DNA of 64,000 nucleotides from positions 1,426,001-1,490,000 of the forward strand of contig NZ_CP009571.1 of the NCBI RefSeq assembly GCF_000764535.1, read 5' to 3'. Source of the stretch: Sphingomonas taxi (GTDB lineage Bacteria; Pseudomonadota; Alphaproteobacteria; Sphingomonadales; Sphingomonadaceae). Below are positions 60,485-64,000 of the stretch, piece after piece. The number at the start of each line of letters is the position of its first letter. The first letter of the stretch is position 1. A program made the position numbers and the translations under genes. The notes below the pieces were generated by a model. That model searched no databases and was not told the origin of the DNA. It saw only the letters and a program-made list of their open reading frames with translations.

Positions 60485-61345
60485 ATGACACCGCCTCCCC
60501 GGGATGGCTCGCGCGATCGCCGGATCGAGGACCCATCGAATCTCTACCTGATTCACCCAGCGTCGCACGCCCTGCTCCCCCTTGCCCTGCGGCACGGTGT
60601 CTCGGCCAATATGGTCTCGCTGATCGGCCTTGCCTGCGGCACGGTCGCGGCGGTCGCCTATGCGCATTGGCGCGATCCGGCGATGGCGCTGGTCGGTCTG
60701 GTATTCTCGGTCGCCTGGCTGGTCGCCGACGGACTCGACGGCATGATCGCGCGCGCGACCAAGACCGCGAGCGCGCTCGGCCGCACGCTCGACGGGCTGT
60801 GCGACCACGGTGTCTTCGCGCTGATCTATCTGTCGCTCGCCTGGACGATCGGCACGACCGGCGGCTGGATGCTCGCCATCGCCGCGGGCGGCTGCCACGC
60901 GGTCCAGTCGAGCCTTTACGAAGGCGAGCGCGCCCGCTTCCACCGCCGCACCCGCGGCACGCCGCTCGCCACGGTGCCGGTGCCGACCGGCATGGTCCTC
61001 GTCCGCCTGTATGACAGCGTCGCGGGGTCGGTCGACCGCATCTCGATGCCGTTCGAGCGCCGCTTCGGCGCCGCCGAGGACCCGTCCGCCTTCGCCGCCG
61101 CTTATGCCGCCGCCGCCGTTCCGGTGATGCGACTGCAGTCGCTGCTCACCGCCAACGTCCGCGTCTGGGCGGTGTGCGCCGCGTGCCTGCTCGGCAGCCC
61201 ACGCCTCTTCTTCTGGTTCGAGATCGTCCCGCTGACGCTGGTCTGCGCGGTCGGTCTTTACCGCCACCGGCGCGTCGAGCGCCGTTTCGTTCACGGCGCC
61301 ACGCCGCAGTCCATTCTTTATCCAAGCGAACAGGGTCATTCATGA
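60485..61345 (+). CDS. CDP-alcohol phosphotransferase family protein
   Basis: Integral membrane enzyme of 286 residues with about six helices. The catalytic motif D-x2-DG-x2-AR-x8-G-x3-D-x3-D is complete: DGLDGMIARATK then GRTLDGLCD, near residues 82-107. It joins a CDP-linked alcohol to an acceptor alcohol. Because it overlaps by ATGA the inositol-phosphate synthase gene, followed by a cytidylyltransferase-like gene, the product is probably an inositol phosphodiester (phosphatidylinositol phosphate or di-inositol phosphate type). The first 35 residues are polar. Confidence 0.88.
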   Translation: MTPPPRDGSRDRRIEDPSNLYLIHPASHALLPLALRHGVSANMVSLIGLACGTVAAVAYAHWRDPAMALVGLVFSVAWLVADGLDGMIARATKTASALGRTLDGLCDHGVFALIYLSLAWTIGTTGGWMLAIAAGGCHAVQSSLYEGERARFHRRTRGTPLATVPVPTGMVLVRLYDSVAGSVDRISMPFERRFGAAEDPSAFAAAYAAAAVPVMRLQSLLTANVRVWAVCAACLLGSPRLFFWFEIVPLTLVCAVGLYRHRRVERRFVHGATPQSILYPSEQGHS

Positions 61346-62433
61346 AGAGCATCAACATCGCCATCGTCGGCATCGGCAACTGCGCGAGCTCGCTCGTCCA
61401 GGGGCTGGAGCATTATCGCGAAGGCGCCAACGATCTCGTCGGCCTGATGCACTGGGAACTCGGCGGCTATAAGCCTTCCGACATCAAGGTCGTCGCCGCC
61501 TGGGACGTCGACACGCGCAAGGTTGGCAAGGACGTCGCCGAGGCGATCTTCGCCAAGCCGAACTGCACCGCCGTCTTCGCCGCCAACGTGCCGGCGACCG
61601 GCACCGTCGTGAAGATGGGCGCGGTGCTCGACGGCGTCGCCGACCATATGGCCGATTACAAGGACGACCGCACCTTCATCGTCGCCAACGACACGCAGCC
61701 GAGCAAGGCCGACGTCGTCGCCGAACTCAAGGCGAGCGGCACCGACGTGCTGATGAACTACCTGCCCGTCGGCAGCCAGCAGGCGACCGAATTCTACGCC
61801 GAATGCGCGCTCGAGGCGGGCGTCGCCTTCGTCAACAACATCCCCGTCTTCATCGCGTCGAACCCCGAATGGGCGAAGAAGTTCGAGGATGCCGGCGTCG
61901 CGATTATCGGCGACGACATCAAGGCGCAGCTCGGCGCGACGATCGTCCACCGCGTGCTGACCGATTTGTTCGCCAAGCGCGGCGTCAAGCTCGACCGGAC
62001 CTATCAGCTCAACACCGGCGGCAACACCGACTTCCTCAACATGTCGAACCACCGCCGGCTCGAATCGAAGAAGATCTCGAAGACCGAGGCGGTCCAGTCG
62101 GTCGCGGCGGAGCGGCTCGACGACGACAACGTCCACATCGGCCCGTCGGATTACGTGCCGTGGCAGAACGACAACAAGGTCTGCTTCCTGCGCATGGAAG
62201 GCCAGTTGTTCGGCGGCGTGCCGATGAACCTCGAACTGCGCCTCTCGGTCGAGGATTCGCCCAATTCGGCGGGCGTCGCGATCGACATGATCCGCTGCGC
62301 GGCGATTGCCAAGGACCGCGGCATCGCCGGCGTCATCGATCCCGCCTCGGCCTATTTCTGCAAGCACCCGCGCACGCAGATGACCGACGACCTCGCCCAG
62401 ACCGCGGTCGAAGCGTTCATCAAGGCCGCCTGA
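61342..62433 (+). CDS. ino1: Myo-inositol-1-phosphate synthase, actinobacterial type
   Basis: Converts glucose-6-phosphate to inositol-1-phosphate with NAD. It has 363 residues, close to mycobacterial Ino1 rather than eukaryotic length. NAD site IAIVGIGNCASSLVQGLEHY, then TDVLMNYLPVGSQQATEFYA, PVFIASNPEWAKKFEDAGV, GDDIKAQLGATIVHRVLTDL and LNTGGNTDFLNM/RLESKKISKTEAV, all mycobacterial-like. Coupled upstream to the CDP-alcohol enzyme and downstream by TGATG to the nucleotidyltransferase. Transfer from actinobacteria is possible. Confidence 0.94.
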   Translation: MKSINIAIVGIGNCASSLVQGLEHYREGANDLVGLMHWELGGYKPSDIKVVAAWDVDTRKVGKDVAEAIFAKPNCTAVFAANVPATGTVVKMGAVLDGVADHMADYKDDRTFIVANDTQPSKADVVAELKASGTDVLMNYLPVGSQQATEFYAECALEAGVAFVNNIPVFIASNPEWAKKFEDAGVAIIGDDIKAQLGATIVHRVLTDLFAKRGVKLDRTYQLNTGGNTDFLNMSNHRRLESKKISKTEAVQSVAAERLDDDNVHIGPSDYVPWQNDNKVCFLRMEGQLFGGVPMNLELRLSVEDSPNSAGVAIDMIRCAAIAKDRGIAGVIDPASAYFCKHPRTQMTDDLAQTAVEAFIKAA

Positions 62434-63137
62434 TGATCACCACGGGCCTGCTGCTCGCCGCCGGACAGGGCAGCCGGCTCCGTGCGGTAACGCCGTTCAA
62501 GCCGCTCTGCCCGGTGGCGGGGCGCGCCTTGATCGACCATGCGCTCGACGGCATGGCGGCGGCGGGGCTGACGCGTGCGATCGTCTCGCTCGGCTATGGC
62601 GCCGACGCGATCGCCGCCCACCTCGCCGGTCGGCAATGGCCGCTCGAGGTGGTGACGGTGATGACCGACTATCATCAGCCCAACGGCGTGTCGGCGCTGG
62701 CGGCGCGCGCGCTGATCGGGCCGCAGGGCGCGGTGCTCGCTATGTGCGATCACCTCGTCCAGCCGCGCCACTATCGCCGTCTCGCCAGGGCTGGCGCCGG
62801 CGACGGCCTGCGGCTCGGCATCGACCGCCGTCTCGGCCATGCCTGGGTCGACCCGCTCGACGTCACCTGCGTCGCGACGCGCGGCGACGGGATCGTCGCG
62901 ATCGGCAAGGGCCTCGAACCGCACGATTGCTACGACACCGGCATCTTCGCGGTCTCGCAACGCTTCTTCGAGGTGCTGGCGACGCTCGACAGCCCGTCGC
63001 TGACCGAAGGCGTCCGCCTGCTAGCCGCCGAAGGCAGCGCGAAGATCGTCGATTGCAGCGACCTCGACTGGCTGGACGTGGATGACGCGCCGGCATTCGC
63101 CCACGCCGAAGGCTGGATGACCAAGCTCGCGGCCTGA
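62433..63137 (+). CDS. Nucleotidyltransferase, probable inositol-phosphate cytidylyltransferase
   Basis: 234 residues of the NTP-transferase fold: LLLAAGQGSRLRAVTPFKPL at the start, SLGYGADAIAAHLAG, and a metal/substrate motif MCDHLVQP that resembles the SDH motif of inositol-1-phosphate cytidylyltransferases; later LTEGVRLLAAEG and DLDWLDVDD. The operon places it directly behind inositol-phosphate synthase, so CTP plus inositol-1-phosphate to CDP-inositol is the likeliest reaction, for use by the CDP-alcohol phosphotransferase. A sugar-phosphate substrate remains possible. Confidence 0.82.
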   Translation: MITTGLLLAAGQGSRLRAVTPFKPLCPVAGRALIDHALDGMAAAGLTRAIVSLGYGADAIAAHLAGRQWPLEVVTVMTDYHQPNGVSALAARALIGPQGAVLAMCDHLVQPRHYRRLARAGAGDGLRLGIDRRLGHAWVDPLDVTCVATRGDGIVAIGKGLEPHDCYDTGIFAVSQRFFEVLATLDSPSLTEGVRLLAAEGSAKIVDCSDLDWLDVDDAPAFAHAEGWMTKLAA

Positions 63138-63640: not shown

Positions 63641-64000
63641 GTGACGCACCTCCCCCCGCCCCCCGCCGACCTGCTCCGCGACGCCGCTTTGTTCCTCGAC
63701 TTCGACGGCACGCTCGTCGAACTCGCCGAGCATCCGGAGGCGGTCGCGGTCGACGCGCGCCTCGCCGCATTGATAGAGCGGCTGTCGGATCGGCTCGACG
63801 GCCGCGTCGCGATCATCTCCGGCCGCCCGGTCAGCGGCATCCGCGCCCTGTTCGGCGATCCGCATTTCGCCATCTCGGGCAGCCACGGGCTTGAGGTGCG
63901 TTGGCCCGACGGACGGCACGAACGCGCGGAACGCCCGGCCGCCCTCGACCGTATAGTGACCGAGATGAAAGCCTTCGCAACTGCAACATCGGGTGTGCTG
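63641..64000 (+). CDS. otsB: Trehalose-6-phosphate phosphatase, 5' part
   Basis: HAD-family phosphatase releasing trehalose from its 6-phosphate. Only the first 120 codons are present. The nucleophile motif is LFLDFDGTLVELAEHPEAV and motif II region VAIISGRPVSGIRALFG, then FAISGSHGLEVRWPDG, all typical of OtsB. The GTG at 63641 is taken as start, giving the usual distance to the first motif. otsA would be expected nearby, beyond the window edge. Confidence 0.9.
   Translation, partial: MTHLPPPPADLLRDAALFLDFDGTLVELAEHPEAVAVDARLAALIERLSDRLDGRVAIISGRPVSGIRALFGDPHFAISGSHGLEVRWPDGRHERAERPAALDRIVTEMKAFATATSGVL

Follow-up and report, generated by a model that had tools for sequence, protein, structure and literature searches.

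Three overlapping genes in the 64,000-nucleotide stretch of Sphingomonas taxi DNA analysed here (the window) very probably encode a route to CDP-inositol. They code for a class I CDP-alcohol phosphotransferase (CDP-AP), a mycobacterial-type myo-inositol-1-phosphate synthase (MIPS), and a nucleotidyltransferase that we propose, from its sequence, to be a CTP:inositol-1-phosphate cytidylyltransferase. MIPS would convert glucose-6-phosphate to inositol-1-phosphate, the nucleotidyltransferase would activate it with CTP to form CDP-inositol, and the membrane-embedded CDP-AP would move inositol-1-phosphate from CDP-inositol onto an acceptor alcohol with release of CMP. Homology, gene fusions and co-occurrence argue strongly for the first two steps and for CDP-inositol as the donor in the third. 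The acceptor is most likely a membrane lipid, either ceramide or diacylglycerol, which would yield inositol-phosphoceramide or phosphatidylinositol by a head-group-activated route; support for this part is much less than for the CDP-inositol steps. For the reading as a whole, in which the operon makes CDP-inositol and uses it for an inositol phosphodiester lipid of the envelope, we consider the chances evenly balanced. The genes and their overlaps are:

60485..61345, + strand: CDP-AP, class I, 286 amino acids (aa), with a complete signature
61342..62433, + strand: MIPS, mycobacterial type, 363 aa, by PF01658 and its match to 1gr0
62433..63137, + strand: nucleotidyltransferase, proposed CTP:inositol-1-phosphate cytidylyltransferase (IPCT), 234 aa, by its likeness to IPCT and by fusions in relatives
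61342..61345, + strand: stop/start overlap of CDP-AP and MIPS, ATGA, 4 bases
62433..62433, + strand: stop/start overlap of MIPS and nucleotidyltransferase, TGATG, 1 base

An earlier, sequence-only reading of this DNA had described the three genes as overlapping by 4 and 1 bases, and the coordinates, frames and overlaps are all as it claimed. The CDP-AP start at 60485 is supported because homologues have equal length, like that of Sphingomonas melonis (P0004), which is also 286 aa long and 92% identical; among the matches listed, the close homologues bearing species names are Sphingomonas. Each product scores above the cut-off of a Pfam family: CDP-AP with PF01066 (38.8 bits, cut-off 22), MIPS with PF01658 (129.6 bits, cut-off 27) and the nucleotidyltransferase, which has the NTP-transferase fold, with PF12804 (47.3 bits, cut-off 27). 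The assignment of MIPS rests on PF01658 along with near full-length homology to the solved inositol-3-phosphate synthase 1gr0 (E 4e-121, residues 4-360 of 363), while the score of 451 bits with the mycothiol INO1 equivalog model TIGR03450 is below its cut-off of 638.

The nucleotidyltransferase is nearest in sequence to characterised IPCTs. In a phmmer search of solved chains, the A. fulgidus IPCT came first (2xme, E 3.1e-9, and 4mnd, 1.6e-8, residues 5-217), followed by MurU (9.1e-8, residues 5-65) and GlmU (1.4e-7, residues 5-68). Its top NCBIfam model is NF041135 for IPCT-DIPPS, the IPCT joined to DIPP synthase (DIPPS), at 69.4 bits over residues 5-226; this is below the cut-off of 580, which is set for the bifunctional protein. 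The CDH-type motif pointed out earlier is genuine: it reads MCDHLV at residues 104-109, and all 36 aligned sequences share M104, D106 and H107 as well as R15 and K23. By motif rather than computed alignment, R15, K23 and D106, which stand for the catalytic Arg, Lys and Asp of the cytidylyltransferase family, pair with R16, K26 and D112 of PMC12275187 (cited here and below from excerpts).

The three genes are found together far more widely than in the window. Among 181 Sphingomonas-genus genomes, 108 encode the nucleotidyltransferase and exactly those 108 encode CDP-AP, with no discordant genome (E <= 1e-40). In all 108, the two genes share a contig, their starts separated by 899-2133 bases, and the MIPS start lies within 2.2 kb of the nucleotidyltransferase start. 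The association of the three genes exceeds chance, though the Fisher value for co-occurrence of CDP-AP and the nucleotidyltransferase (1.6e-52) ignores kinship and is not to be taken literally. MIPS is present in 119 of the 181 genomes, comprising all 108 carriers of the module and 11 without it. In the 30 Sphingomonas loci read out of the 108, all three genes are together, CDP-AP being codirectional in 20 and divergent in 10. The gene order of the window, CDP-AP, MIPS and nucleotidyltransferase, recurs in Sphingomonas parapaucimobilis YK209, where the overlaps are 1 and 4 bases.

Similarly, 92 of 149 Novosphingobium genomes (in the search tool's grouping, the genus that includes N. hassiacum) have a match to the nucleotidyltransferase at E 1e-40, with three matches merely partial or split. 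A scan of relatives, from which the best 80 of 253 loci were kept, returned mostly Novosphingobium or sphingomonads (Novosphingobium-type loci). MIPS is directly upstream of the nucleotidyltransferase in 78 of the 80 (a contig end marks the start of the remaining two loci), and the module type of CDP-AP is present in 67; of the 13 loci without it, 10 begin less than 2.1 kb from a contig end. The CDP-inositol module is common in both Sphingomonas and Novosphingobium and no local curiosity, and no publication describing the three genes as a module in sphingomonads was found in the open-licence literature. Across the phylum, 15 of 299 genomes have the nucleotidyltransferase, and 11 of these belong to families other than that of the window. 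For CDP-AP, 10 of 385 genomes in the class gave a match (E 1e-15), which is near full-length in three, one of them being the window's own genome.

MIPS itself was detected in 32 of 119 sampled genomes of the family (E 1e-20). Among the 32 family loci with a MIPS gene called (L076, where MIPS is at a contig end, was left out), 12 have the nucleotidyltransferase and the same 12 have CDP-AP; most of the other 20 are a separate use of MIPS. A different MIPS locus without the nucleotidyltransferase is seen in L043, L054-L059, L064-L073 and L075. It mostly contains epimerases, genes for GT4 glycosyltransferases, a methyltransferase, a Zn-alcohol dehydrogenase and a GFO/IDH oxidoreductase (by Pfam on L058 only), and is perhaps for an inositol- or cyclitol-containing polysaccharide.

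Gene fusions in more distant bacteria suggest the order of the steps. MIPS is fused to the nucleotidyltransferase in three genomes from three other alphaproteobacterial families:

L311:2270-4135: MIPS fused to an IPCT-like domain, 621 aa
L313:7971-9851: MIPS fused to an IPCT-like domain, 626 aa
L315:3427-5262: MIPS fused to an IPCT-like domain, 611 aa

A gene like CDP-AP2, a second type of CDP-AP, adjoins the fused gene in L311 and L313, and the genome of the L315 fusion encodes a full-length relative of the window CDP-AP (36% identical) on another contig. In the genome of L310, the contig with a near full-length CDP-AP is without MIPS and the nucleotidyltransferase, the fused gene being on another contig. 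A fourth genome (L309) keeps the three as separate neighbours: MIPS, the nucleotidyltransferase and a CDP-AP with 34% identity. In two genomes of another family of the phylum (L219 and L222), it is the nucleotidyltransferase and CDP-AP domains that are fused, directly beside MIPS. These proteins resemble the archaeal IPCT-DIPPS model nearly end to end, with 248 and 287 bits (below the cut-off of 580). In the same family, MIPS and the nucleotidyltransferase adjoin a CDP-AP2-type gene in L213, L217 and L220. As each pair of neighbouring steps is fused in different relatives, the nucleotidyltransferase likely takes the product of MIPS and passes its own product to CDP-AP. Such fusions are the strongest non-biochemical evidence for this order. 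They also agree with the earlier proposal that the genes form a set for CDP-inositol and then an inositol phosphodiester, as does the finding that an IPCT is the nearest solved sequence.

The same observations bear on whether inositol-1-phosphate is the substrate. Under one alternative, the nucleotidyltransferase activates another phospho-alcohol, for example phosphoglycerate as does Caulobacter CpgD for ceramide diphosphoglycerate, and MIPS is there for other reasons. CpgD is a cytidylyltransferase for a sphingolipid head group, and among structures it matches the T. maritima inositol enzyme best (PMC12275187); a comparison of folds is by itself uninformative on the substrate. Given the fusions of MIPS with the nucleotidyltransferase and the constancy of MIPS as its neighbour in both genera, however, we regard this alternative as very improbable.

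CDP-AP carries the complete class I signature (D-x2-D-G-x2-A-R...G-x3-D-x3-D) as D82-G-L-D85-G-M-I-A-R90...G99-R-T-L-D103-G-L-C-D107, and all signature residues are invariant in the 48 aligned sequences. Its structure model is nearest to AF2299 and then to 4mnd. Between predicted helices 125-156 and 223-235, CDP-AP has an extended helical segment that the archaeal enzyme presumably lacks. With NF041135, CDP-AP scores 23.3 bits against the cut-off of 580, and so diverges from DIPPS; given this and the 69.4 bits of the nucleotidyltransferase, the two separate proteins fall outside IPCT-DIPPS as that model defines it. A profile alignment made for acceptor residues aligns transmembrane helices TM4-TM5 unreliably, and the profile is impure (p222; 1 of 4 proteins is without the CDP-AP signature).

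The first match of CDP-AP among solved sequences is CEPT1 (E 7e-4). Membership in the Kennedy-type CHPT1/CEPT1 group was dropped because the catalytic Glu and His of G-E-x-x-D-H-x-x-D are missing and because AF2299 and DIPPS match better in structure; at this site the window CDP-AP (P0001) reads G99-R-T-L-D103-G-L-C-D107, with G104 invariant in 48 of 48 sequences. The best NCBIfam models are those for archaetidylinositol-phosphate synthase (39.7 bits) and phosphatidylinositol-phosphate (PIP) synthase (36.0 bits), as might be expected if CDP-AP were an ordinary PIP synthase using CDP-diacylglycerol and inositol-1-phosphate while the nucleotidyltransferase served another pathway. The PIP synthase score is well below the cut-off of that model (NF045883, 36 bits versus 170), and we think such a division of labour improbable.

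If the acceptor is a lipid, one candidate product is already described. Heaver et al. 2022 (PMC9246714, cited here and below from excerpts) report from Novosphingobium acidiphilum a sphingolipid that is consistent with phosphoinositol-dihydroceramide in its retention and in the fragmentation of its head group, although the species has no homologues of either Bacteroides inositol-lipid cluster. S. paucimobilis makes a phosphohexose-like sphingolipid without the m/z 241 fragment, and inositol lipids are relatively rare in bacteria according to the abstract (PMC9246714). The sphingomonad module is the natural candidate for the source of the orphan lipid of N. acidiphilum. We tentatively suggest, as a possibility with a well less than even chance, that CDP-AP transfers inositol-1-phosphate from CDP-inositol directly to ceramide, so that neither CDP-diacylglycerol nor phosphatidylinositol nor an AUR1-type transferase would be involved, and that this is the missing route to the Novosphingobium orphan inositol sphingolipid.

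That connection is a hypothesis. About 4 in 10 genomes in the sample of N. acidiphilum's genus are without a match, and N. acidiphilum is not among the best 80 of 253 loci kept. Neither it nor S. paucimobilis is among the named matches listed, where only S. parapaucimobilis is shown with the module. The BLAST searches of the authors, with Bacteroides proteins as queries, did not flag the module (PMC9246714).

CDP-inositol has so far been tied mainly to solutes and lipids of hyperthermophiles. If the module works as proposed, CDP-inositol chemistry would extend to ordinary mesophiles of Sphingomonas and Novosphingobium, the module would give a direct genetic handle on the orphan inositol sphingolipid, and it would provide a simple bacterial system for head-group-activated inositol lipid synthesis.

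A soluble product is another possibility, and the sequence-only reading had taken the nearby trehalose gene as a hint of a compatible solute. CDP-AP would then join CDP-inositol and inositol-1-phosphate like DIPP synthase, forming soluble (phospho-)di-myo-inositol phosphate in a mesophile. NAD synthase lies upstream of the window operon, and a trehalose operon begins ~0.5 kb downstream:

63641-64000 of the window and beyond (L053:10300-14251): trehalose operon with trehalose phosphatase, a GH15 trehalase-like gene and OtsA

The hint proved weak: of 30 further Sphingomonas loci that were read, only one has trehalose genes beside the module (these 30 include only two of the five genomes closest in MIPS, one of them represented by a contig ending 3.4 kb downstream). 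NAD synthase adjoins it in 8 of the 30. Moreover, a profile search of the window genes found no phosphatase in the operon, envelope or export genes recur beside the module in some relatives, and CDP-AP is far from DIPPS in score, whereas CDP-AP2, found in only 9 of the 181 Sphingomonas-genus genomes (E 1e-20), is more DIPPS-like. We keep a compatible solute as a rival of low probability.

The export genes raise the possibility that CDP-inositol donates phosphoinositol units to a capsule-like or teichoic-acid-like polymer that is then exported. CDP-AP2, GT4 glycosyltransferase genes and Kps-like export genes lie next to the module in L040, L280, L050-L052, L129, L157 and L159 (L050 and L157 being from the same species). 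On contig C2 (~51.3-60.7 kb; L061, continued in L077), far from the module, the window's own genome carries a cluster of this kind. It encodes KpsE, KpsM, KpsT, a KpsD-like protein and three GT4 enzymes, the exporter model scores, taken on this genome, being below equivalog cut-offs. Its last gene is a CDP-AP2 with a DIPPS-like transferase domain (92.4 bits) and with no match among plasmids. The gene order is the same as in L040, where the Kps-like cluster and the module are contiguous.

In six other relatives (L041, L042, L044, L047-L049), a Wzi-type capsule assembly gene is downstream, called by Pfam on the L041 gene and by similarity in the other five. A larger CDP-AP of ~420-490 aa flanks MIPS and the nucleotidyltransferase in L041, L042 and L044-L049 (alignment A5); by eye, its N-terminal domain resembles a degenerate nucleotidyltransferase, and, judged from the alignment summary, the third signature Asp is a His (H307 in L041) in all nine sequences aligned. 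The CDP-AP gene is convergent with neighbouring lptF-lptG in L309:7577-10742 and L310:3980-7091, which represent two other alphaproteobacterial families. These envelope contexts vary among relatives and so do not fix the product.

A minority of relatives seem to use the same CDP-inositol for further CDP-APs together with a Kps-like exporter and GT4 glycosyltransferases. Capsule synthesis as a general function, suggested by L040 and L050-L052, was set aside since CDP-AP2 is so much rarer than the module in Sphingomonas (9 versus 108 of 181 genomes) and Kps-like genes are in merely 3 of the 80 Novosphingobium-type loci. CDP-AP2 is in 24 of those 80, and the nucleotidyltransferase is in 8 of the 9 CDP-AP2 genomes, unremarkable against its base rate of 108/181. 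Given also that the core three genes persist without adjoining export genes, we retain a surface glycan as a rival of low probability and favour an envelope lipid.

The closest known systems each share part of this arrangement. The IPCT and IPCT-DIPPS proteins of the di-myo-inositol-phosphate pathway in A. fulgidus and Thermotoga involve, by homology, the same three activities (MIPS, IPCT and CDP-AP), whereas in the sphingomonads the genes are separate, the hosts are mesophilic Alphaproteobacteria and CDP-AP is divergent. The mycobacterial and Bacteroides PIP synthase route likewise uses MIPS and a CDP-AP to form an inositol phospholipid, but it draws on CDP-diacylglycerol and needs no inositol cytidylyltransferase.

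The alternative inositol-lipid cluster of B. vulgatus, known here from its published description, places MIPS close to genes for an NTP transferase and a CDP-alcohol phosphatidyltransferase (PMC9246714). Its authors propose a Kennedy-like course through CDP-inositol and, for the HAD hydrolase of the cluster, conversion of phosphatidylinositol to the ceramide lipid; they describe the functions as unconfirmed (PMC9246714). In contrast, the window operon has no HAD hydrolase and, with NAD synthase and the trehalose operon as neighbours, does not belong to that cluster type; the trehalose phosphatase nearby is a HAD-superfamily protein but part of the trehalose operon. Reminiscent of the B. vulgatus cluster, 7 of the 80 Novosphingobium-type loci have additional genes upstream of MIPS:

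L083, L109, L110, L114, L118, L133, L145: extra nucleotidyltransferase and HAD phosphatase

Like the sphingomonad module, the Caulobacter CpgA-D system includes a related cytidylyltransferase, CpgD, whose CDP-alcohol product is destined for a sphingolipid head group; the proposed user of that product is CpgA, which has a CDP-alcohol-type domain (PMC12275187 and PMC11324152, the latter also from excerpts). The Caulobacter system differs in its substrate, phosphoglycerate, and in its gene context, and MIPS is not named among its genes in those excerpts. By analogy, Caulobacter CpgD is a precedent for a cytidylyltransferase supplying a CDP-alcohol to a sphingolipid head group (PMC12275187), the role that the sphingomonad nucleotidyltransferase may have in an inositol lipid route.

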